Part shown: in pieces, positions 74 through 12,048 of the stretch | How the letters are laid out: each line of letters starts with the position of its first letter | Numbering within the stretch: position 1 is the first letter of the stretch | From: Nevskia sp. | GTDB lineage: Bacteria > Pseudomonadota > Gammaproteobacteria > Nevskiales > Nevskiaceae | NCBI GenBank assembly: GCA_031291075.1 | Contig: JARLJS010000093.1 | Coordinates: 1 to 64,000 of the forward strand | Direction of reading: 5' to 3' | Length of the DNA: 64,000 bases | Program-made: the position numbers and the translations under genes | The notes under the pieces: generated by a model | What the model was told of the DNA's origin: nothing | The model's database searches: none | What the model saw: only the letters and a program-made list of their open reading frames with translations

Positions 74-141
74 CTCGTCTCTTCCTTAGGTCTCAATGAT
101 ACTCATCGACCCTTGGAAGACGAAATTCGGGGGGCACCTCA
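1..141 (-). mobile_element. End of an IS3-family insertion element
   Basis: The transposase start at 73 is preceded on the minus strand by about 70 bases of leader. Going outward, a terminus of the form TGAGGTGCCCCCC is seen near 129-141, which fits the TGA-initiated, C-rich ends of IS3-family elements. The exact terminus is inferred because the other end and the target duplication are outside the window. The element would have inserted into the neighbouring kinase gene. Confidence 0.5.
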
Positions 142-2116
142 CCAGACTTGTATTTGTCGCGCACTCGTTCAGATACGGCAAGCGGGAGTACGCATAAAAT
201 AATCGCGCCTTGTCGATCTGCTTCGAGATGTCCTTCGATGAAGGTGATGGATAATCTTTTAGGATGTTGCTCCAGATCTGCGCAGCCGTAGTCAAATCAC
301 TAGCGTCGGCCGCAAGCCAGCCTTTGAGCAGCTGTGCTTTGAGCATGACCAAATCGTTTCGTTGCGCCACCCGCTCGAGTCTGGCGTAGGTGTCCTGGAA
401 GATCGGGCGAAGGTTTTCGGTTGGATCGACATCAAGGCGGTATCCGACTACATCGATTTTTGCATCGAGCGTCCGCAGGTCGTCGGCTCCAAGATTGTCA
501 CCATAGAGCGTGGCGGAACGCTCCGCCAGCCGGATGGATTCCTTAGTTTCGCTCAAGTTGTCCAGCGTATCCGCCAGCACCAGATCAAGCGCAGCCTCGA
601 CCAGCGGACTGCCGGCAAGCCTTTTAGGCACTTCCGGCAGGCTGCTGATCACGGCTTGTTTCAGCGTGATGTCATAACGCCCACCGTAATCCGGGCTGGC
701 CGCCTTGATGATGTCCCGGTTCAGGAACTCGTTGAACTGGGTGGCGATGTTTCTCTGTAGCTCCGCCGCCTGCACCGCCTGGCGTTCCCGCAGCAGGAGG
801 AGGGTGCTGATCCCGAGGCCCAGGACCAGCACGATGCCGGTGAGAATCACCCAGGGTCGTTTGGCCCTGGCGCGGTCCAGTTCGCGCCGGGCCTGCTGCA
901 AGCGCTCCTGCTCGGTATGCTGCCGGACCTGCTCCGCTCGTCGAGCCGGCAGCGTACGCAGCCGCTCCGCCAGGAGCTGGGCTGAAGGCAGGCGTCTCTG
1001 CGGCATGCCATTGGTGGCCTGCCGGATGTCCTCTCGCAGCAGTTCGTCCGGGACATCGGCTTCCCAACCCGACGCGATCGGCTGCCATTTTCCAGTGACC
1101 AGCTGGTACAGCAGTACTCCCAGGGCAAATACATCGGATTGCACACTGGCACTGCCGCCGGAGAACAGCTCTGGTGCCATATACACCAGGGTTCCTGCGC
1201 CGGAGCTGTCTGTGTGGGCCAGCGTCTGGGTAAACCCCAGCATGGTGATGCCGAGGGAATCGAGCCGGCTCGCATCGGCCTGTCCGGCGCCGAAGTCGCA
1301 GAGACGAATCCGGGGGTGGCCGTCGACTTCCTCCACCAGGATGTTCTGCGGCTTCAGGTCTTTGTGCAGCACACCGACCGAGTGAGCGGCACCTGCCGAT
1401 TCGGCAATCTGCGTCATCAGCTCGATGCGCAATTGCAGCTCCACGCCCCCGGGACCGCCGTGGGCGTCCAGCCAGTCGCGGAGATCGGCACCGACGTATT
1501 CGGACTCGATGAAGTAGGGCGTCTGCTCGAACTGCCAGTCCAGGATCTTCGCCACTGCGGCCCCATCGCCCAGGGCTTCGCGCAAGAGGCGGTACAGTGT
1601 CACTTCGCGTTTGAGCGCACGCAGCTGGGAGCCTTCCGCGCAGAACTTGAAGAACCGCTGCTCGCGCGTCTTGGCATGCTCGGCCAGCCAGGCGTTGCCG
1701 CCGCCGCCCAGCGGTTTGATCAGCGTCCAGTGCGGTCGTCCAGGGACGCAATCGCCTGCCTGCAGGCCCAACCGCACAGGCGGTTTGGCATCCGAACGGC
1801 GCTCGACCTCAGCTACCAGCCGGTAGCCGACCTTGGGGATGGTGACGATCAGGCTCTGGTCGCCATCTCCCAGAACCCGGCGCAGCTTGCCGATGGCGTT
1901 GGATACGGCGGCTTCGTGGACCGGCCGTCCCTCCCATACCGCGTCCAGGATTTCCTCGGAGGTGACGACCTCGCCGGCATGCTCCAGCAGCAGGCGCAAT
2001 ACTTCCAGCGGCTTGGGCTCGATGCCGACAGACTGGCCGCGCACGCGCACTTCGTGCGTGCGCGCGTCCAGCTCCGCTTCGGCAAAGCGCCAGATGGTTG
2101 TGCGTTCGTCGCCCAT
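86..2116 (-). CDS. Winged-helix DNA-binding / Ser-Thr protein kinase fusion, probably truncated at C-terminus
   Basis: The 676-residue product starts with an OmpR/CadC-type winged helix (about residues 8-105, ending in the usual GYRL strand). A eukaryotic-like kinase domain follows (about 130-390): a Gly-rich loop LGGGGNAW, catalytic loop HKDLKPQN (HKD in place of HRD), DFG in LCDFGAG, and MAPE. One membrane helix lies near 422-442, followed by a helical region with no repeat I could assign with confidence. The likely role is membrane-anchored phosphorylation signalling linked to transcription; the target is unknown. The last 18 or so codons appear to be insertion-element sequence, so the original C-terminus is probably lost. 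Confidence 0.75.
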   Translation of the reverse strand: MGDERTTIWRFAEAELDARTHEVRVRGQSVGIEPKPLEVLRLLLEHAGEVVTSEEILDAVWEGRPVHEAAVSNAIGKLRRVLGDGDQSLIVTIPKVGYRLVAEVERRSDAKPPVRLGLQAGDCVPGRPHWTLIKPLGGGGNAWLAEHAKTREQRFFKFCAEGSQLRALKREVTLYRLLREALGDGAAVAKILDWQFEQTPYFIESEYVGADLRDWLDAHGGPGGVELQLRIELMTQIAESAGAAHSVGVLHKDLKPQNILVEEVDGHPRIRLCDFGAGQADASRLDSLGITMLGFTQTLAHTDSSGAGTLVYMAPELFSGGSASVQSDVFALGVLLYQLVTGKWQPIASGWEADVPDELLREDIRQATNGMPQRRLPSAQLLAERLRTLPARRAEQVRQHTEQERLQQARRELDRARAKRPWVILTGIVLVLGLGISTLLLLRERQAVQAAELQRNIATQFNEFLNRDIIKAASPDYGGRYDITLKQAVISSLPEVPKRLAGSPLVEAALDLVLADTLDNLSETKESIRLAERSATLYGDNLGADDLRTLDAKIDVVGYRLDVDPTENLRPIFQDTYARLERVAQRNDLVMLKAQLLKGWLAADASDLTTAAQIWSNILKDYPSPSSKDISKQIDKARLFYAYSRLPYLNECATNTSLVRCPPNFVFQGSMSIIET

Positions 2117-3042: not shown

Positions 3043-3999
3043 TTACGTCGGGTGGAATTCGATCGGGTAGCTGCCGTAGGAAAACGGCGGCACGTTCTTG
3101 GAAGCGAAATGGAACAGCTTGATCCGCTCGATGATCTTGCGTTCGAAATCGGGATCGTTGAAGGAGCTGGACACGATCGAACACGCCGTGATGCTGCCGT
3201 CCGGCGCGATGGTGAACTTGACCACGATCTTGCCGTCGCCCATGTTCGGGCTTTCGCGCGCCTGGCGGTTGTAGATCGAGATCAGCGCCGCCTTGTTGCG
3301 GTCGAACACCTCCTGGATCTCGGTGAGCGTACGCGCGTTGTTGACCTTGTCGTTGCCGGCGCCGGCGCGGCTGGCGTCGCGGCCGAAGCCCACCGGGCTT
3401 TGCACCGTGCTGGTCCGCCGCGTGCCCAGGCCGACCCCGCTCTGCGTGGTGGTCACGCTGGCGCTGCCGACCACGCCGTTGCCGCTGTTGGCGGCGGCGG
3501 AGCTGGCGATCGTTTCGGCCGACGCGGCGCTGCCGCCCACGCCGCCCTTGGACGAGATCACGCCGCTCACCAGCGGCTGCTGGCTGGTGATGGTGTTGAG
3601 GTTCTGGCTGCGCAGGTCGGCGAGCTGGTCCTGGATCACCCGCATTTCCTGGGTTTTCTGCGCCGCCTCGCGCGCGGTCTCGGTCGGCACCGGCGTCGGA
3701 TGCTGCACCGGGCGGGGCGGGGCGGCCTGTTGCGGCGGCTTTTCCTCGGCCTTCTTTGCCGCCGGCTTGGGTTCCTCCGGCTTGGGCGCGGCCTCGGCCG
3801 GCTGCTGCGCGATCAGCTCGACATAGCGCGAGCCGTTGTAGACGCCGGCCGCACTCTTCTTGGCCTCGATCTTGTAGATGGACACCAGGATGGTCAGGAT
3901 CAGGGCGGGGACCGCGACCAGCAGGACGATGCGCCGGAAGCGGCGGTCGGCCTCTTCCGACAGCGCCCAGCTTTCCCAACGGATGGCATGCACGCCCAT
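3043..3999 (-). CDS. TonB-like energy transducer with AgmX/PglI-type C-terminal domain
   Basis: This 318-residue protein has a cytoplasmic N-terminus, one membrane helix (about residues 23-43), a Pro/Lys/Glu/Ala-rich stretch (about 60-100) typical of TonB-type proteins that span the periplasm, a Gly/Ser/Ala-rich middle and a folded C-terminus (about 225-318). The C-terminus has the pattern [22 protein letters not shown] and FHF seen in AgmX/PglI tails, which resemble TonB. It should couple the ExbB/ExbD motor encoded just upstream to an outer-membrane partner. Its ATG shares one base with the stop of the preceding ExbD gene (TGATG), so the two are translationally coupled. Confidence 0.8.
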
Positions 4000-4508
4000 C
4001 AGGACCTCCGTCCGCTGCGGTGGTTGACCGACAGCGAGATGCGGGCGAACTGCGCCTGGCCGGCGGTGATCATCACCTTCTTCAGCAGCGAGTAGGGGAT
4101 GTCCTTGTCCGCCATGATGTTGATCTCGCCGCGGGTAAGGGTATTGGGAGTGGCGCCCTGGATCTGCGCCAGCGGCACCAGCAGCAGCTGCGACTTGAGC
4201 TGCGGCAGCACGTCGCCGCTGATCGCCTCGGCCTGCGCCACGCTCATCACCGGCTGGCCCTGCAGGGTGATCGATTCGGAAGTCACCATCAGCACGGGCG
4301 TATCGTTAGGCGTCTGGCTGGTGACGGACTGCGGCAGCTCCAAGGAACGCGGGCTGCGCAGGGTCTGCACGCTGGTGGAGGTGAGCAGCAGGAAGAACAC
4401 CAGCGTGGTGAAGATGTCGATCATCGACACCAGGTTGAGCGGCACCACGTCGCGCTTGAAGGTTTTGCGCATCATGCGGTTGCGCATGAAGGTGGAACGC
4501 AGGCTCAT
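3999..4508 (-). CDS. ExbD/TolR-family biopolymer transport protein (second copy)
   Basis: At 169 residues this matches the ExbD/TolR plan: a short basic cytoplasmic N-terminus, a single membrane helix (about 25-45) carrying the proton-conducting Asp31 in SMIDIF, and a periplasmic domain. It should form the stator-type proton channel with the ExbB-like protein. It overlaps the preceding ExbD gene by four bases (ATGA) and the following AgmX-like gene by one. Two different ExbD proteins with one ExbB is the arrangement of myxobacterial AglR-AglQ-AglS. Confidence 0.9.
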   Translation of the reverse strand: MSLRSTFMRNRMMRKTFKRDVVPLNLVSMIDIFTTLVFFLLLTSTSVQTLRSPRSLELPQSVTSQTPNDTPVLMVTSESITLQGQPVMSVAQAEAISGDVLPQLKSQLLLVPLAQIQGATPNTLTRGEINIMADKDIPYSLLKKVMITAGQAQFARISLSVNHRSGRRS

Positions 4509-5065
4509 GGCGCGCCTCCTCCCGCCGGAGCCGCCGCTGCGGGTTGGGGTGCCGCCGCCGCCGGGGCGGCCTGGGGCGCGTCGCCCACGGCGATCTGCGG
4601 GAACAGGTCCCGCTGCGGATGGCCCGGGCCGGCCGGCTGCACACGTACGGTATCCATGACCTGCACCAGGGTGTTGTAGGTGATGCCCGGTTCGAGCAGC
4701 AGCGCGATCTTGTCTTCCGCGGGCTCACGATCCTTGATCTGGCCGATGAAGTCGCCCAGCCCCTGCAGGTCGTACTCGCCGGTCGCGGTGACGGGAAGCT
4801 GCTTCAGCGGGCCGCTTGCATCGGCGACGGTGAAGCCGTCCCGGCGGATCACCACTTTCAGGCCCTTGGGCTGCTGCTGCGGCGGGCTGGCCTCGGACGA
4901 CGGCAGGTTGATGCCGAGGATCGACACGCCGGTGGCGTTGACCAGGAGGAAGAACACGAGCACCGTGAGGATGTCGATCATCGACACGATGTTCAGCTCG
5001 TTGGCACGCTTGCGCCGCGCACGCCGGCTGGCGCGTCGCAGCTCGCGTGAGAGTCCTTGCATCAT
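4505..5065 (-). CDS. ExbD/TolR-family biopolymer transport protein (first copy)
   Basis: The 186-residue product has a strongly basic N-terminus (RRASRRARRKR), a membrane helix with the conserved Asp31 in SMIDIL, and a periplasmic part ending in an Ala/Pro-rich tail (about 155-186) that the second copy lacks. It is clearly related to, but diverged from, the neighbouring ExbD, so the pair probably forms a heteromeric channel. The gene starts 42 bases after the ExbB-like gene and ends in a four-base overlap with the next ExbD gene. Confidence 0.9.
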   Translation of the reverse strand: MMQGLSRELRRASRRARRKRANELNIVSMIDILTVLVFFLLVNATGVSILGINLPSSEASPPQQQPKGLKVVIRRDGFTVADASGPLKQLPVTATGEYDLQGLGDFIGQIKDREPAEDKIALLLEPGITYNTLVQVMDTVRVQPAGPGHPQRDLFPQIAVGDAPQAAPAAAAPQPAAAAPAGGGAP

Positions 5066-5107
5066 AACGGGGCTAGGCCGTGATTGCGGTGCGGGATGCC
5101 GCGGCCG

Positions 5108-5737
5108 TCACTTCAGGCCGAGGCTGTTGAGGAACTTCACCGCGGCCATCTCCAGGCTGTCCACCAGTTCGTCGGTCATCGACTGCAGCCAGGCGTGGAT
5201 CAGCATGAAGGGCACCGCCACCATCAGGCCGAACGCGGTGCAGTTCATCGCCACCGAAACCGCTTCCGACAGCTGGTCCTGCTTCTCGGCCGGGCTGATG
5301 CCGGAGAGGGCGGAGAAGCCGTGGATCAGGCCGATGATGGTGCCGAGCAGGCCGAGCAGCGTGGCGACGTTGGCGAAGGTGGCGAGATAGTGGGTGCGGC
5401 GCTCCAGCTGCGGCGTCACCTCCATCAGGCTCTCCTCCATCGCGCGCTCCACCTCCTCCCGGTTGGCCTGGCCGCGCGAGCGGGCGATGCCGTAGCCGAG
5501 CACGCGGCCGATGGCCGTGGAGGAGGCTTCCGCCAGCTTCTCCGCGTCCTCGTACTGGCCTGCGTTCACCATCGGCAGCAGCTTGGTCCACAGGCTGCGG
5601 TTTTCGCTATGGGCGCGCCGCAGGTAGACGAAGCGTTCGATGGTGATGGCCAGGCCAAGCACCAGCACCGCCAGGATGGGGTACATGAACACGCCGCCGT
5701 TTTGGAAAAAACGGGTGACGGTGGCGAAAAAATCCAT
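5108..5737 (-). CDS. MotA/TolQ/ExbB-family proton channel protein
   Basis: Start chosen at 5737 (MDFFATVTRFF), which follows a good ribosome site AGAGGAAA; the open frame continues upstream but without family similarity. The 209-residue product has three membrane helices (about 15-37, 118-140, 160-182). The signature segments TLLGLLGTIIGL and SVAMNCTAFGLMVAVP contribute the proton path in ExbB/TolQ. It should form the pentameric motor core around the ExbD helices. It is the first of four adjacent motor-component genes, 64 bases after a small secreted-protein gene. Confidence 0.9.
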   Translation of the reverse strand: MDFFATVTRFFQNGGVFMYPILAVLVLGLAITIERFVYLRRAHSENRSLWTKLLPMVNAGQYEDAEKLAEASSTAIGRVLGYGIARSRGQANREEVERAMEESLMEVTPQLERRTHYLATFANVATLLGLLGTIIGLIHGFSALSGISPAEKQDQLSEAVSVAMNCTAFGLMVAVPFMLIHAWLQSMTDELVDSLEMAAVKFLNSLGLK

Positions 5738-5801
5738 GGTGTTTCCTCTTGAGCGTGATGTGAGGTTGTTTGAAGGAAGTGGACGGTTCAGCTTCCGCGG
5801 T

Positions 5802-6161
5802 TCATTTCTTGGCGCCAAGCTCAGCCTGGCGGTAGACGGTGATGACGTCGTAGTACTCGATCTGACGGTGGAACTCGCCCGGATCGACCGGAGCCATCTG
5901 CTCCTGAACGAACTGGGCCGGGCGATCCATGCCGCGCTCGGCGTATTCGTTCTTCCACGGCGTGAGGTACAGGCCAATCGGCGATTCGCGATCGCCGATG
6001 ATGGTCGTACCCGGACCTTCGCCTTCGGCCGCCGCCGCCGGCGCGGTCTTGGCCGCGGCGGCGTGGCGGTGCTTCGGTTTCGGCTGCGTCTCCTCAGCTC
6101 CGGCCTGCGCAGCCACCAATGCGGCAGCAAGCCCGATTGCAACCCATGATACCGGTCTCAT
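5802..6161 (-). CDS. Small secreted protein of the ExbBD/TPR operon, function unknown
   Basis: The 119-residue product has a signal peptide (hydrophobic core about 6-18, probable cut after AQAGA near residue 22), a His/Ala/Lys-rich low-complexity stretch (about 26-48) and a C-terminal region with conserved-looking IGLYLTPWKNEYAE and PGEFHRQIEYYDVITVYR segments. I recognise no family. Its start overlaps the stop of the upstream TPR lipoprotein gene by four bases, so it belongs to the operon and probably acts in the periplasm. Confidence 0.65.
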   Translation of the reverse strand: MRPVSWVAIGLAAALVAAQAGAEETQPKPKHRHAAAAKTAPAAAAEGEGPGTTIIGDRESPIGLYLTPWKNEYAERGMDRPAQFVQEQMAPVDPGEFHRQIEYYDVITVYRQAELGAKK

Positions 6162-6838
6162 CGCTTGTGCTCCACTACCTGCGGGGCAGGCGGCTGGGAG
6201 GGAGCGGCCGCGGGCGCACCGGCGCTGCCCGCCGCGGGCCCCAGGCTGTCCTGCAATTCGTTGATCCAGGCGGTCACCACCGGCCGGCCGTCCCGGCCGG
6301 CCAGGCGCTGGTACTCGCGATACTGCTGCAGCGCGTCCCGCGGCCGCTTGAGGTAGACATCGTAAAGGATGCCAAGATTCAAGTGGGTGGCGGGCTTGTC
6401 GGGCTTGATCGAAATCGCCTTCAGATAGGCCTGCTCGGCGCGGCCGTAGTCGTTGTTTTCGCGATACAGGATGCCCAGCCAGGCCCAGCCGAAGTCGTCC
6501 GCCGGATTGTCGGCGCAGGCCTTGATGAAGCTGCCGATCGCCTGCTCACGCTGCTTGCCCTGGGCCTGCAACACGCCCAGGTCGTTGAGCGGCCCCGCAT
6601 ATTCGGGGAAATCCTGTGCCAGCTTGGCGAAGGCGTCCTTGGCCTCCTGCGGCTTCTTGGCCTTCAGCAGCTTGAGCGCTTCCTGGAACCGCTGTTCCGG
6701 ATCGCCCTTGTCCGGCCCCTTGGGGACCTCCTGCACCGGCGGCGGCGGGATTGCCGGCGGCTTGGGCGCGCGGGTGGCGCAGGCCGCCAGCAGCAGCGCC
6801 GGCAGCAGCAGCAGGCACGACCTAGCGGAGCGTTTCAT
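6158..6838 (-). CDS. TPR lipoprotein (226 aa)
   Basis: A lipoprotein signal is visible (LAAC, lipid-modified Cys20), followed by a Pro-rich linker and about four tetratricopeptide-like repeats (residues about 45-190) with patterns such as AGPLNDLGVLQAQGK, WLGILYRENNDYGRAEQAYLKA and LNLGILYDVYLKRPRDALQQYREY. It ends in an Ala/Pro-rich tail. The likely role is a periplasm-facing scaffold anchored in the outer membrane. It overlaps the larger TPR lipoprotein gene by 17 bases. In size and build it resembles GltE-type lipoproteins of gliding machines; that assignment is inference. Confidence 0.75.
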   Translation of the reverse strand: MKRSARSCLLLLPALLLAACATRAPKPPAIPPPPVQEVPKGPDKGDPEQRFQEALKLLKAKKPQEAKDAFAKLAQDFPEYAGPLNDLGVLQAQGKQREQAIGSFIKACADNPADDFGWAWLGILYRENNDYGRAEQAYLKAISIKPDKPATHLNLGILYDVYLKRPRDALQQYREYQRLAGRDGRPVVTAWINELQDSLGPAAGSAGAPAAAPSQPPAPQVVEHKR

Positions 6839-9635
6839 AAATCTCCTCGCGCTGCTCGCGCTTGCCGTATTGGGCCGGGGCCAGCTGCCCGAGTGCGTCC
6901 ACGCTCTTGCGGATCGAAGGGTTCCACAGACCCTGCGCGACCCGCTGCAAATTGGCCTCGTGCGCCTTGATCGCCAGTTCGTCGAAGGGTTCCGCCTGTT
7001 CCTCCAGCAGCAGGTTGTACTGTTCCAGTTCGTCGCCTTTCAGCTTGGGCGGCCGCTCGGAGTTGAGCAGGGCGCGGCTGAAATCGTGGTAGACGTTGCC
7101 GGTCTCGAAGGTCGCCGCGGTGGTGGTGTCGATGAAGCCGTAGCTGGCGGCGCGGTTGAGGGCCTGTACCGCCGCTTCGGTGGCCTTCTTGCGCACCGGC
7201 AGGCTCTTGGCGATGGGCAGGTCGATCGACAGGGACTGCGCGTCCTGGGCCGCGGCGCGGCCCAGTTCCAGGCTGGCCTGGGCGGCGGCCAGCTTGCTGT
7301 CGTCGGTGCGGGCGGAGCCGGCCATGTCGTCGGCCGCCACCAGGTCCCGCAACCAGGCCAGGTAGCGCGGGCGGTCGTTGTTGGCCAGGGCCATGTCGGC
7401 CAGGCGCCGCCGTGCCTGGATGCCGCGGTCCAGGGGCTGCGGGAAGTTCCTGACGTAGTACTCGTAGGTGGACGCGGCCAGGTCGGGCAGCTTGGCCTGG
7501 TCGTACAACGTGGCGGCCAGCCAGCCGGCCTCGCGCCGCGTGTCCTCGCTCTCGGACGTGCGCTGCGAAACGCGCAGGTAGGCGGTGGCGGCCTGGGCCG
7601 GCTTGTTGTCCTTCTGGTAGGCCAGGGCCAGCTTCTTGTCGGCGTCCGCGATCAGGCTGTTGGTCGGGAAGCGGGCCCGGAAGCCCTCCAGCGTCTGCTC
7701 GGTGGCGCCCCAGTCCTGCAGCGAGAAGAACGCCGCCGCGGCGTCATAGTCGGCATTGGGGCGGATGCTGGCGTCGGGGGTGACCTGGCCCACCCGCAGG
7801 AAGTGGCGGGCGGCGGTGCGCAGGTCGCCGGCGGTCCGTGCGGCGTCACCCTGCTTATAGATCGAGGCGGCGAGCTGTTCCACCACCGTCTTGTGCGCGG
7901 GGTCGGCAGCAGGCGTCAGCGCCAGCAGCTGGGTGTAGGCGGCTTCGGCCTCGGCGTACTTGCCTTGCGCGAACTTGGAGTCGGCCAGCACCGCCAGCAC
8001 CTGGCTGCGCAGCGCCACCGGCGGCGGCGGGTTGGCGGCCAGTACGCGGTTGGCCAGGGTGATGGCCTGGTCAAGATCCTTGACCTCGTACAGGTCCTGG
8101 GCGGCGCGGGTCAGTACCGGTGCCCATTGCGGATGGGTCGGGAAGGTATCCGCCAGCTTGACGCTGGCGTCCACCGACTGGCGCAGCACCGCGGGCCGGT
8201 CGGCCGGGGTGACTTCCTTGCCCAGGCGTTGGTAGGCCTGCACCGCGGCGTAGGCCGCTTCCGGGGCCCGCGGGTTGTTGGGGTAGCCGTAGGCGGTCTT
8301 TAGGTATTGCTCGGCCGCGTCCTTGGTCTGGCCGCCGTCGTAAAGCGAATCGGCGTACAGCATGTTGATTTCGGGCAGCTTGGGATCCTGCGGGTAAATG
8401 TCGAGGATCTTGCGGTACCAGCCGGCCGCGGCGACGAAATCGGCGCGCTTGGTCGCGGCGTCGGCCGGCGGGTCCTGCTGCGCCTTGGCCTGGTAGTGGC
8501 GGCCGAGGTCCTCCAGGTGCCGGCGCAGCTCGGTCATCACCTCGGGGGTCGGCTGCTTGCCGCCCCAGTAGGCGGAAGCCGGCTCGTAGGCGGTGGCATA
8601 GCGTTCCTTCTCACGCACCACCAGGTCGCTGAAGCCGCCGTCCTGGTAGGCCGAGATCACGTGCGACTGGAATTGTGGCGCGCGCGGATGCATGGCGTGG
8701 CTTTCCACGAACGCCGCGTAGGCGTTGGCCGCATCGGTGTAGCGGCGCTTGTCCAACATCAGCTCGCCCAGCGCGCTGTACACCAGCGGATAGAAGCGCG
8801 GCTCGCCATGCTGCGCGAAGTACTGGTTGACGGCCTTGCCGCCCCCCATCTGGCCGAACGACAGGCTGGAGACGCGCAGGGCGTCGCGGGCGAGGTCCGC
8901 CTTGCCCACCGGCACCGCCTTGAGAGTGGCCTCGGGATCGTCCGGCTCGCCCGGCGGCAGCTCGCGATCGAGGATGGCGAAGAACACCGCCACGTCGTCG
9001 GCGTACTTCTGCTGCTGGAACTGCGACCAACCGTACTTGTACTGGGCCGGCACGAAGAACGGCGTCTCCTCGCCGAGGGCCATCACCATGCCGTATTCCT
9101 GCTCGGCCTCGGCATAGCGGCTGCGCCCGTACATCAACTCGCCGGCGCGGAAGTGGGCGTCGGCGATCAGTGGAGAGGTCGGGTAGTCGTGCTCCAGGCG
9201 CTGCAGCGTGACGATGGCCTGGTCGGTTTCGCCGCTGTTCTGGTAGGCGCGCGCGAGCTGGTACAGCACGCGGTCGCTGTCCTTGGCGTTGGGGCTCTGC
9301 AGCAGCTCCTTGTAGATGCGGATCGAATCCTTCAGGGCGGCGCCGTTGCTGGTATTGCCGGCGGTGTCCTCGACCTGCAGCTGCAGGTCGGCGATGCGCT
9401 TCATCGCTTCGGCGCGGGTGTCCGGGTCGGCGCTGAGCTCGAGCAGCTTGCGGTAGTTCTCCAGCGCCTTTTCCGGGTCAGCCGCCACCGGCTCCGATTG
9501 AATGATCGGCAGCTTGTCGGGGGCGGGCTGCTTGACGTTTTCGAGCGTCTTGATCGGCGGGGCCGCGTGTTTGACCGCCTCGGTCTGGCAGGCGGCGAGC
9601 GCGAGGCAGGCCGCGGCGAGCGCTGCGCGCTTCAT
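6822..9635 (-). CDS. Large TPR lipoprotein (937 aa)
   Basis: The N-terminus is a short lipoprotein signal (LAAC, Cys16). The rest is almost all helical repeats of TPR type from about residue 45 to 900, for example ALENYRKLLELSADPDTRAE, QLARAYQNSGETDQAIVTLQ and KLALAYQKDNKPAQAATAYL. Such proteins act as long scaffolds in the periplasm or at the outer membrane. Its start overlaps the stop of the preceding gene by four bases. The size and repeat density fit the big TPR subunits of Agl-Glt-like machines, but repeat proteins diverge fast and this needs profile searches to confirm. Confidence 0.75.
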   Translation of the reverse strand: MKRAALAAACLALAACQTEAVKHAAPPIKTLENVKQPAPDKLPIIQSEPVAADPEKALENYRKLLELSADPDTRAEAMKRIADLQLQVEDTAGNTSNGAALKDSIRIYKELLQSPNAKDSDRVLYQLARAYQNSGETDQAIVTLQRLEHDYPTSPLIADAHFRAGELMYGRSRYAEAEQEYGMVMALGEETPFFVPAQYKYGWSQFQQQKYADDVAVFFAILDRELPPGEPDDPEATLKAVPVGKADLARDALRVSSLSFGQMGGGKAVNQYFAQHGEPRFYPLVYSALGELMLDKRRYTDAANAYAAFVESHAMHPRAPQFQSHVISAYQDGGFSDLVVREKERYATAYEPASAYWGGKQPTPEVMTELRRHLEDLGRHYQAKAQQDPPADAATKRADFVAAAGWYRKILDIYPQDPKLPEINMLYADSLYDGGQTKDAAEQYLKTAYGYPNNPRAPEAAYAAVQAYQRLGKEVTPADRPAVLRQSVDASVKLADTFPTHPQWAPVLTRAAQDLYEVKDLDQAITLANRVLAANPPPPVALRSQVLAVLADSKFAQGKYAEAEAAYTQLLALTPAADPAHKTVVEQLAASIYKQGDAARTAGDLRTAARHFLRVGQVTPDASIRPNADYDAAAAFFSLQDWGATEQTLEGFRARFPTNSLIADADKKLALAYQKDNKPAQAATAYLRVSQRTSESEDTRREAGWLAATLYDQAKLPDLAASTYEYYVRNFPQPLDRGIQARRRLADMALANNDRPRYLAWLRDLVAADDMAGSARTDDSKLAAAQASLELGRAAAQDAQSLSIDLPIAKSLPVRKKATEAAVQALNRAASYGFIDTTTAATFETGNVYHDFSRALLNSERPPKLKGDELEQYNLLLEEQAEPFDELAIKAHEANLQRVAQGLWNPSIRKSVDALGQLAPAQYGKREQREEIYETLR

Positions 9636-11485
9636 TTAGGCTCATCCTTCAGCTGACTGTCGTAGACCCGCGCCAGGGCGAAGCGCGACTCGATCAGGTA
9701 TTTCTCGTTGAGCACCTTCTGTCTCTGCAGGTCGTCGGTGGCCACGTCCTGCAGCAGCTTGCCCTGCGCCTTCTCGGCCGTGGCAAGCTGCGGCAGCAGC
9801 GCATCGATCTTCGCGCGCAGCGCGTCCATGCGCTCGTAGGCGCCGACGAACTGCTCCGCGCCGGGGCTTGGCGCCAATTGCAGCTGCACCGCCTCGCCGG
9901 CGCCGGAAGCCTTGGTCCCGGCCGGCTCGGTCGCCGCGCCCAGCCGCTCGGCCATGCGCAGCTGCATGGCGGCCGCCGAGCCTGCCTCGTCGGGCGGCGC
10001 GTCGGACGGTTCGGAGGTGGACGGCTGCGCTTCAGGCTTGGCCGGGGCGGTCACCTCCTCGGTGGTGCGCGTCGCGTAACTCTGCTGCAGGTCGGCCAGG
10101 CGCGACTTCCAGTTCTGCAGGTTGAGCTGCAGCATGCGCACGTCGCGGAAATTCTTGAGCGCCTCCTGGAAGCGGTTTTCGGCGATCAGGGTCTGCAGAT
10201 AGAACGTTTCGGGCGCGTCCGGCAGGTCCTTCAGCTTCCAGGTCCAGCCGGTCTCGGCCTCGGCGTCGCGCTTGATCATGGTGGTCACCATGCGCCCGCT
10301 GCGCACGTGCTCCATCGCCTCGTCCAGGCGCGTGCGCGTCTGCTCCAGCGCCGGGATGGCGCGCTCGTAGTACTCCTTGGCCTGGATGTGGGCGCCCAGG
10401 CGGTCGAGCACATAGGGGATGGCCAGCATGCATTCCTGCACCGCCGGGTCCATCGGGTCGCGGTTGGTCAGCTCCACCCACGGCACCAGCGCCAGCTTGA
10501 GCTGGGCTTCCTCGCCGGCCGATTTGCCGGTGAGGTGGAACGGCGTGAGCTGGGCCCGTTTGTAGATGCTGTCCGAGTCGATGTAGCCCGGCCGCAGCAG
10601 CACCCCGATGGTGGCGAAGGAGGTGAACGCCGTGGGTTCCTTCGGCGCTTCGTCCCCCAGCTCGGCCTTCTTCTGCTGCGTGCCGCGCGGTGCCAGGTGC
10701 GCCCAGCCCAGCCCGAGCAGGGCCTTGTTGGAATACGGCCCGTCGGTGCGGATGCGCTCGAAGATCGGGACCGCGGTGCCGCCCTGCTGCGAGCGCAGGA
10801 AATGATAGGCCAGCGTCAGGTTGGCCTTGTCGCGCAGTGCCAGCGTCTCCGAGTCGGTCGGCGTCATGCGGCCGACGCGGTCCAGCACGTTGACCCCCTG
10901 TCCGACGCGGCCGTCGTTGATGAGCGCCACGCCCAGGTTGTAGCGCATCAGCTGGCTCTGGTCGCTGCCGTTGTCGCCCTGCGTGAGGACGTCCGCGGCC
11001 TCGCCGTAGCGCCCCTGCGCCAGCAGCACGCGCGACTGCAGGTCCTGCCAGTTCACCACCAGCTTCTTCGGCAGCTGGGCGTGCATGGCGTTGAGTTCGT
11101 CGGTGGCCTGCTGGTAGTAGCCGCGCTGGTAGTAGAAGTCCGCCAGGTGCAGGCGCGCCTGCGCCAGGCTGACCGGGTCGGTGGCGCTGGCGATCTGTTC
11201 GCGGTAGATGAGCTCGGCCCGCGCCGGGATGCCGAAGGCGAGCGTGTCGTCGGCCAGTTCGCGGTGGTAGGCCGTCCCCAGGCGCTGCGAGGGCGCGGAG
11301 GTGCGCATCTGCGACAGCAGGGCGGCGGCGTCCAGATAGCGGCCGTTGCCGGCGAGGAACTCGGCTTCGCGCACGCCGGGATCGTTCTCGCCGCCGGGGC
11401 TATAGACGTCGGCCGTGGGCGCCGCGGCGGCGGTGCCGGCGAGGGTCAGAAGGAAGACCGCGAGCTGTGTCGCGCCGCGCCTCAT
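9632..11485 (-). CDS. Secreted TPR protein (617 aa)
   Basis: Start chosen at 11485 (MRRGATQLAVFLLTLAGTAA), which gives a classical signal peptide cut near residue 22 and a four-base ATGA overlap with the preceding gene; the longer open frame upstream has no signal sequence. The mature protein carries helical repeats, for example AEFLAGNGRYLDAAALLSQM, LHLADFYYQRGYYQQATDEL and ALLGLGWAHLAP, then a charged C-terminal part (about 480-617) with possible coiled coil. The likely location is the periplasm, as partner of the other TPR proteins. Confidence 0.75.
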   Translation of the reverse strand: MRRGATQLAVFLLTLAGTAAAAPTADVYSPGGENDPGVREAEFLAGNGRYLDAAALLSQMRTSAPSQRLGTAYHRELADDTLAFGIPARAELIYREQIASATDPVSLAQARLHLADFYYQRGYYQQATDELNAMHAQLPKKLVVNWQDLQSRVLLAQGRYGEAADVLTQGDNGSDQSQLMRYNLGVALINDGRVGQGVNVLDRVGRMTPTDSETLALRDKANLTLAYHFLRSQQGGTAVPIFERIRTDGPYSNKALLGLGWAHLAPRGTQQKKAELGDEAPKEPTAFTSFATIGVLLRPGYIDSDSIYKRAQLTPFHLTGKSAGEEAQLKLALVPWVELTNRDPMDPAVQECMLAIPYVLDRLGAHIQAKEYYERAIPALEQTRTRLDEAMEHVRSGRMVTTMIKRDAEAETGWTWKLKDLPDAPETFYLQTLIAENRFQEALKNFRDVRMLQLNLQNWKSRLADLQQSYATRTTEEVTAPAKPEAQPSTSEPSDAPPDEAGSAAAMQLRMAERLGAATEPAGTKASGAGEAVQLQLAPSPGAEQFVGAYERMDALRAKIDALLPQLATAEKAQGKLLQDVATDDLQRQKVLNEKYLIESRFALARVYDSQLKDEPK

Positions 11486-12048
11486 TGCGCCGCCCTCCAG
11501 TCGTGGAACTGCAGTTGCGGGTCGCTCAGGTAGCCGTTGCGCTTGAGGTCGAACTCGAGCTCGGCCGGCGGCTGGCCCTTGTCGAAGCTGCCGTCGTAGC
11601 TGCCGGTGAAGGGAGGGTCGCCGGGCTTGGCGTCGGAATAGCGCGCGCTGAACTGGGCGCGGATGCGGTGGCTGCCCGGTTCCGCGGCGAGGCGCAGGAG
11701 GCGGTGCAGGCCGCGTTCCTGCAGCACGATCGACTCGAGCTCGTTGTACTGGTAATGCACCGGCGCGGCGTCGTCGACGGCGACAGTGATGTCCTTGAGC
11801 AGCATGCCGGGGATATGCACGCCGACGTACACGTCGACACGGGTGCGGGGCGGGTAGAGGTAATCGTGTTCGATGGCCTGCGCCTGCTGGTTGATGTCCA
11901 GCGCCTGCTCCTTCAGTTTCTGGATGTCCTGGTCGACCTGCAGCGGGGCGGGGTCCGCGGCTTGTGCCGGCCCTGCACCGACAGCGGCGGGGAGCAGAAT
12001 CGCGGCCAGTAGTCCGCGCCAGGCTCGTAGCGTTTTTGGTTTGATCAT
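11482..12048 (-). CDS. Secreted protein of unknown function, first gene of the ExbBD/TPR operon
   Basis: The 188-residue product has a signal peptide (cut after AQA near residue 30), a short helical stretch LQVDQDIQKLKEQALDINQQ that may form a coiled coil, then a beta-rich region (about 65-188) with alternating hydrophobic residues such as TRVDVYVGVHIPGML and SHRIRAQFSARYSD. I recognise no family. As the first gene of a chain of overlapping genes ending with ExbB, ExbD and the TonB-like protein, it is probably a periplasmic component of the same machine. Confidence 0.65.
   Translation of the reverse strand: MIKPKTLRAWRGLLAAILLPAAVGAGPAQAADPAPLQVDQDIQKLKEQALDINQQAQAIEHDYLYPPRTRVDVYVGVHIPGMLLKDITVAVDDAAPVHYQYNELESIVLQERGLHRLLRLAAEPGSHRIRAQFSARYSDAKPGDPPFTGSYDGSFDKGQPPAELEFDLKRNGYLSDPQLQFHDWRAAQ

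Follow-up and report, generated by a model that had tools for sequence, protein, structure and literature searches.

The closest described relatives of the system considered here are the Agl-Glt and Agl-Nfs machines of Myxococcus xanthus. According to published work, the AglRQS motor depends on the proton-motive force (PMC3169522, PMC3858216), AglR binds GltG (PMC3169522), the outer-membrane barrels GltA and GltB bind GltC (PMC4488436) and the Nfs complex borrows the Agl motor (PMC3858216). Equivalents of AglR, AglQ, AglS, GltC, GltD, GltE and GltG united in one cluster were described by Luciano et al. in 2011 as a core complex of Gammaproteobacteria, Geobacter and other bacteria (PMC3169522), and it is this study to which the preliminary description of the present DNA alluded. 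Marinobacter and Saccharophagus are among the carriers that it names. Here we analyze an operon of nine genes (g1-g9) on the minus strand at positions 3043-12048 of a 64,000-nucleotide stretch from Nevskia sp. (assembly GCA_031291075.1, contig JARLJS010000093.1), hereafter the window. Judged by its sequence, the operon is the AglRQS-Glt core complex of Luciano et al., a known kind of force transducer, and is not evidence of gliding. It is very likely a stand-alone core in which a proton-driven inner-membrane motor of g6, g7 and g8 acts, via the transducer g9, on the soluble protein g2 and the lipoproteins g3 and g4, together with the secreted proteins g1 and g5. The core of 2011 has an extra gene, said in that paper to lack homologues in Myxococcales and Bdellovibrionales, which is not equated here with g1 or g5; the window's operon has nine genes, of which g1 has a myxobacterial relative and g5 stands at the place of GltF.

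The operon begins with g1 (11482-12048, minus strand as are all nine), which encodes a secreted protein of 188 amino acids. It is followed by g2 (9632-11485), a periplasmic, GltC-like tetratricopeptide repeat (TPR) protein of 617 residues with a signal peptide recognized by reading, g3 (6822-9635), a large GltD-like TPR lipoprotein of 937 residues, g4 (6158-6838), a GltE-like TPR lipoprotein of 226 residues, and g5 (5802-6161), a secreted protein of 119 residues. The motor genes comprise g6 (5108-5737), a 209-residue proton-channel subunit of ExbB/TolQ type that falls in the AglR clade, and the two ExbD/TolR-type subunits, AglQ-like g7 (4505-5065, 186 residues, Asp31) and AglS-like g8 (3999-4508, 169 residues, with a membrane Asp31). 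Last comes g9 (3043-3999), a 318-residue, GltG-like transducer with a single transmembrane segment and a TonB-like tail of AgmX/PglI type. Six of the eight junctions overlap, by 4, 4, 17, 4, 4 and 1 bases as computed from the coordinates, and gaps of 64 and 42 bases lie between g5 and g6 and between g6 and g7. The ExbB domain PF01618 is found in g6 (100.6 bits), the ExbD domain PF02472 in the two ExbDs (55.6 and 60.6 bits), TPR families in g2, g3 and g4, and a TonB C-terminal domain in g9, whose tail also matches the AgmX/PglI model NF033768 (52.8 bits against a cut-off of 40); a LAAC lipobox lies near the N-terminus of both g3 and g4. The claim of nine contiguous, mostly overlapping genes for one ExbB, two ExbDs, a TonB tail, three TPR proteins and two small secreted proteins is thus confirmed by open reading frames (ORFs), coordinates and domain matches.

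The same gene order recurs in relatives, often with gloB or fabI at its flank, and g3 and g6 travel together across Gammaproteobacteria, the class of the window's genome ("order" and "family" below likewise refer to this genome). Among 370 class genomes, g3 occurs in 90 and g6 in 89; 88 have both, two have g3 alone and one has g6 alone. Because of this recurrence and co-occurrence, the nine-gene arrangement is not due to chance. In a sample of 338 genomes of the phylum, g6 was found in 15, all of the same class, and no plasmid-borne copies of g3 were found.

Kinship with the myxobacterial machine was assessed by profiles built from relatives of the window's proteins (26 of 35 relatives for g3, 25 of 34 for g2, 20 of 24 for g6 and 15 of 16 for g1, the rest being redundant or ran-on ORFs) and by 11 named genomes reached through an MglA query, namely eight Myxococcota and three Geobacter relatives, of which all 11 were searched with g3 and nine with g6 and g2. 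A nine-by-nine hhalign matrix places the top score on the expected partner for seven genes. Thus g3 pairs with the GltD set (100%, score 640), g4 with GltE (100%, 178), g9 with GltG (100%, 192) and g2 with GltC (98%, 131, compared with 73 on the GltD set and 93 on the GltE set), and g6 pairs with AglR; g7 scores 180 on the AglQ set versus 92 on AglS, and g8 scores 205 on AglS versus 71 on AglQ. The reference set includes a bona fide gliding cluster (L250), whose GltE and GltG exceed their cut-offs at 740.8 and 1082.9 bits. In whole-genome searches with the g6 profile, AglR-type proteins of Myxococcus, Hyalangium, Anaeromyxobacter, Sorangium and Nannocystis score between E 1e-47 and 1e-58; each Myxococcus-type genome gives two matches at 1e-47 or better and the next ones near 1e-24. 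The g3 profile picks up GltD-type proteins in four genomes with E 1e-48 or better. From the three Geobacter-type genomes the g3, g6 and g2 profiles drew weak matches only, and these genomes were not used further. A profile comparison with the Glt and Agl sets, proposed in the preliminary description, therefore came out in favor of GltC, GltD, GltE, GltG, AglR, AglQ and AglS and left GltF unproven. Matches solely to TonB-dependent uptake systems, which had been named beforehand as speaking against the kinship, are not what was found, as the TPR proteins match the GltC, GltD and GltE sets.

The ExbB tree tells a concordant story. Among its 56 rows, g6 and 23 relatives form one group (100/98), and this group joins nine of ten Agl rows in a clade (100/95), leaving outside six more ExbB/TolQ-type proteins that the window's genome encodes and 16 of Myxococcota. 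Clustering with canonical homologues, which had also been raised as a contrary outcome, is not seen, since those of the genome's own TolQ/ExbB-like proteins that were placed in the tree fall elsewhere than in the g6-AglR clade. Within this clade, four Agl rows diverge first, including a Myxococcus motor whose 162-residue AglQ has Asp28 as in M. xanthus, and five Agl motors from second copies or compact clusters are sister to the window's g6 group (97/91). At the level of sequence, then, the nearest myxobacterial relatives of the operon are not the gliding genes. The g3 profile agrees in ranking the GltD-type proteins of L249 (Myxococcus-type) and L262 (Hyalangium) at 3e-75 and 1e-79, above the gliding GltD of L250 at 2e-53. 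In both L249 and L262 a g1-like ORF, a GltC-like ORF, g3 and g9 stand directly beside mglA, and in the Enhygromyxa cluster L266 the order is g1, a TPR ORF at the g2 place, g3, g4, a GltF-like ORF, g6, g7, g8 and g9. The mglA-adjacent cluster of L249 is presumably the one called G4. In Luciano et al., the function of the second Myxococcus clusters G4 and G5 is called unknown (PMC3169522). A side observation concerns record BNCN01000011.1 (L080), titled Comamonas sp. KCTC 72670, in which a protein matching Myxococcus MglA at 99% is encoded along with Glt clusters of myxobacteria (L249-L254); its label is probably wrong for that reason. Taken with the direct comparison of loci, the profile matrix and the tree support the proposal that a gammaproteobacterium carries kin of the Agl-Glt machine.

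The two small secreted proteins differ in how far they can be traced. Against a three-member set, made up of the genes that precede the GltC-like gene in Myxococcus, Hyalangium and Enhygromyxa, g1 gives an hhalign match of 95.9% (E 5e-9), which points to a myxobacterial relative of g1 that is new here. Its AlphaFold2 model combines a long helix with a beta-sandwich (predicted local distance difference test, pLDDT, 88.7; the g2 model has pLDDT 76), and a fold search of g1 against the PDB returned no match at E 0.001 or better. For g5, repeated hhalign comparisons with GltF gave 1.5-2%, 6%, 26% and 29%, and a control against the AglS set gave 12.6% versus 29.2% for GltF, so that its identity as GltF was left unproven. 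A sequence search of g9 against the PDB yielded weak matches only (E 0.13 or worse), and a TonB/TolA-type histidine in its membrane segment, seen in four of 24 rows by a crude hydrophobicity window, was not used.

The proton site of the motor sets most of the class apart. The survey covered 101 class motors including the window's, and 96 of the other 100 gave both ExbDs (L332, L378 and L379 lie at contig ends, and L380 is the weak outlier G319). At the position of AglQ Asp28, g7 has Asn in 94 of these 96 motors and Asp in two, L288 of the window's family and L369; by genome, Asn is found in 83 and Asp in three. The membrane Asp of g8 is present in all 96, in the window and in every other g8 row that was inspected. 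The channel threonine of g6, Thr167, is conserved in 24 of 24 family rows, and a channel Thr is found in all ten Agl rows. The window's own motor, with Asp31 in both g7 and g8, is therefore an exception in its class. In an order-level set of 31 g7 rows, seven of which are class loci also counted among the 96, Asp occurs in 11 and Asn in 20, and all 11 with Asp come from the window's family. The residue aligned with this site in the 162-residue Myxococcus AglQ is Asp28, and two of eight myxobacterial AglQ-set rows (L255 and L266) have Asn, both from clusters uniting motor and Glt genes. In M. xanthus, the AglQ D28N mutant is reported to lose proton conductance, motility and sporulation (PMC3858216). 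The occurrence of Asn in place of AglQ Asp28 across the class is new here; no statement on a natural Asn in AglQ-type subunits was found in the open-licence literature.

How the window's family came by its second Asp is suggested by the 22-residue membrane segment of its Asp-type g7, which is nearer to g8 (60% for the window) than to Asn-type g7 (41%), whereas the periplasmic part is nearer to g7 (31%) than to g8 (16%). We read this as an exchange of the g7 membrane segment with the neighboring g8, and convergence on the same function could be an alternative source of the g8-like segment. L369 differs from the family's pattern and looks like a separate case. The tree in this segment analysis, like the GltD tree below, is a quick tree.

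A further departure concerns the number of modules, counted by g3, relative to motors. The total is 115 g3 modules once split matches in G192 and G229 are joined manually; an AglR-type motor lies no more than 8 kb away from 86 of them, and the other 29, some of them at contig ends, have none at that distance. Of the 90 genomes, 62 pair a single module with a single motor and 15 combine two modules with one motor; eight have two of each, one has two modules and three motors, two have one module and two motors, and in two no motor was found. Neither g8 nor g9 was detected in any of 12 unlinked modules examined, one of which (L276) is cut by a contig end; L274 is the sole one with ordinary, distant ExbB/ExbD matches, about 5 kb away. 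An order sample of 16 further or second-copy loci comprises nine without g6-g9, two with g9 only and five with a motor. All but two of 15 second copies, L060 and L070, group in one clade of the GltD tree, where the myxobacterial rows stand together as outgroup. The frequent second, motorless module in relatives is new here, and with its two output complexes and one motor it resembles the Agl-Nfs arrangement of M. xanthus. In the window's genome there is a single g3 module and a single AglR-type motor.

Outer-membrane barrels of GltA/GltB type track the core closely. TIGR04565 (OMP_myx_plus) exceeds its cut-off in 56 of the 370 class genomes, every one of which belongs to the 90 with g3; 43 of 57 matches lie on the same contig as g3 and 34 within 15 kb of it. 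Matches solely below the threshold occur in seven further genomes, one of them with g3. By Luciano et al., gltA and gltB are placed only in Myxococcales and Bdellovibrionales (PMC3169522), and no statement on TIGR04565 in Glt loci was found in the open-licence literature; the strict co-occurrence of barrel and core is new here. In L251, a Myxococcus locus with an nfs-like order, both ORFs upstream of the GltC-like gene exceed the TIGR04565 cut-off (194.8 and 75.1 against 60), and by position we read them as NfsA and NfsB.

In nine of 20 class loci (seven of the 12 unlinked modules and two others) a set of mutually similar ORFs adjoins the module, and its thioredoxin also occurs in a tenth. By its families, which were assigned in L268 and in part in L281 and L282, the set includes a DUF3570 protein, a TlpA-like thioredoxin, two barrels (one over the TIGR04565 cut-off and one with an SH3 domain under it) and an ORF with a stretch like hydrazine synthase alpha, with ApbE in L281. 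The stretch resembling the middle domain of hydrazine synthase alpha lies at L268:17343-20000 (63 bits against a cut-off of 26.6), and similar ORFs recur beside Glt modules. A flavinylation motif has been described for DUF3570 (PMC8238504); [ST]GA[ST] was found in one of nine DUF3570-type ORFs, which does not support a role with flavin in these copies. In the window's family, second modules tend to adjoin an OmpA protein fused to a cupredoxin or cytochrome c domain (L053:15140-16600, L073:12555-14276, L056:5621-6712 and L061:13806-15341), and in L061 genes for DUF3034, globin, FMN-binding and PepSY proteins adjoin as well. The OmpA-cupredoxin fusion was tried as a marker and rejected: five matches in the window's genome stop short of the cupredoxin end, and the search is unspecific because of the OmpA domain. 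A redox theme appears in both settings, the class neighbor set and the second modules of the window's family. In the window itself, a 676-residue ORF downstream of fabI (86-2116, minus strand) appears by reading to fuse a winged-helix transcription-factor domain to a Ser/Thr protein kinase domain.

Gene identity, gene order, kinship and the conservation of proton-path residues can be taken as demonstrated from sequence, and a mechanism can be sketched by homology. The subunits g6-g8 would use proton flow to work g9, which would contact g6 as GltG contacts AglR and would load g2-g4 at the outer membrane, so that force would reach the outer-membrane lipoproteins. The output may, more tentatively, be the moving or loading of outer-membrane assemblies and not cell gliding, because related genomes combine a motorless second module with one motor, often near GltA/B-type barrels or other outer-membrane or redox proteins. 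One motor in these relatives might serve two modules much as Nfs borrows the Agl motor in Myxococcus.

Several observations weigh against this account. The score gap of the g6 profile is less clean where intermediate second matches occur, in Sorangium (1.5e-38) and Nannocystis (8e-35), and one of the ten Agl rows (L257) falls outside the ExbB clade, while the window genome's ExbB-like L005 and L008 are the nearest rows outside it, on long branches. Against whole genomes the g2 profile is weak (2e-8 at best), and the TPR profiles cross-match each other, so that the GltC assignment of g2 rests on relative scores; the Enhygromyxa ORF at the g2 place scores g3 best, weakly. Matches of g4 to the GltE model (5e-6) and of g9 to the GltG model (3e-8) stay below the NCBIfam cut-offs, and g2 and g3 match no Glt NCBIfam model. 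Homology of g5 with GltF is suggestive only, by position and size. A GltA/B-type barrel (TIGR04565, E 1e-8) was not found in the window's genome, a draft that is 96.9% complete, nor did the two other order members with g3 in the class sample give a match. Finally, there is no phenotype on record for the locus, and no function for the core outside myxobacteria was found stated in the literature.

The TonB C-terminal domain of g9, the ExbB/TolQ nature of g6 and the fact that g3 exceeds the cut-offs of the YbgF and BamD models would also fit an ordinary TonB-ExbBD system of TtpC type, or a Tol-Pal variant, that energizes nutrient uptake or outer-membrane constriction. TolQR-TolA-Pal and ExbBD-TonB do share the motor superfamily and the TonB-like tail, but the operon has two distinct ExbDs, an ExbB of another clade and TPR lipoproteins in place of Pal, TolB and receptors, none of which is encoded within it, and seven of its genes pair with Agl/Glt sets. 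The genome also encodes a separate TolQ that passes its cut-off and two more TolQ/ExbB-like proteins that narrowly miss the TolQ threshold and lie outside the g6 clade; a flagellar motor protein that passes its cut-off is present as well. By equivalog models, g6 scores 60.6 bits for TolQ (cut-off 221) and 33.5 for ExbB (cut-off 206), and g7 and g8 score 36.1 and 25.7 for TolR (cut-off 127), all below. On the trees and these scores an identity with TonB uptake or Tol-Pal was rejected, and we regard a function of that kind as very unlikely.

That the locus drives gliding of the window's bacterium is suggested by its kinship with a gliding machine and by a weak positive association of MglA with the core (five of 90 class genomes with the core versus five of 280 without; odds ratio 3.2, Fisher p 0.07). 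Nonetheless, MglA is present in ten of 370 class genomes only, a search of the window's genome at E 1e-15 found none, and Luciano et al. judge motility by the core alone unlikely (PMC3169522). For these reasons, together with the missing barrel match, gliding is not implied, an MglA-linked version of it was set aside, and we regard it as highly improbable. The operon shares motor, transducer and TPR parts with the M. xanthus machines but differs from them in size and equipment: g3 has 937 residues versus 1191 in GltD, g4 has 226 versus 471 in GltE, no FHA domain is among the Pfam matches of g9, the class at large has Asn for AglQ Asp28, and the gliding accessories are absent, as GltH, GltI, full-length GltJ, GltK and Cgl adhesins were not recognized in the operon (they were not sought genome-wide). 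An Nfs-like machine that spreads or anchors surface polysaccharide is a rather doubtful alternative, favored in that the best studied non-gliding relative does just this (PMC3858216). Polysaccharide synthesis or export proteins were, however, found in none of 19 family-searched neighbors of related modules (most neighbors were not searched), with redox, barrel and other proteins there instead. A stand-alone core acting on periplasmic and outer-membrane TPR proteins remains the preferred explanation.

For the class motors sampled, it is reasonably likely that most have a naturally asymmetric ExbD pair, with Asn in the AglQ-type subunit and one acidic site, that the window's lineage regained Asp through a g8-like segment in g7, and that one motor often serves two modules, one of them tied to GltA/B-type barrels. 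The single-acid ExbD pair, the motorless modules and the strict barrel co-occurrence are new as class-wide features; the first does not hold for the window's own motor, nor do the other two for its genome. With Asn in the AglQ-type subunit, a single acidic site would have to sustain rotation or force, and such motors could be true heterodimers with one proton site, or homodimers of the AglS type could perform the work. A 2022 review gives it as not known whether AglQ and AglS pair with each other or each with itself (PMC9389320), and the class motors constitute a natural test of this question. The core, whose 2011 description covered several Gammaproteobacteria and a few other bacteria and gave no function, is now seen by g3 in 90 of 370 class genomes, and the barrel co-occurrence and motorless second modules provide genomic leads to what these machines move.

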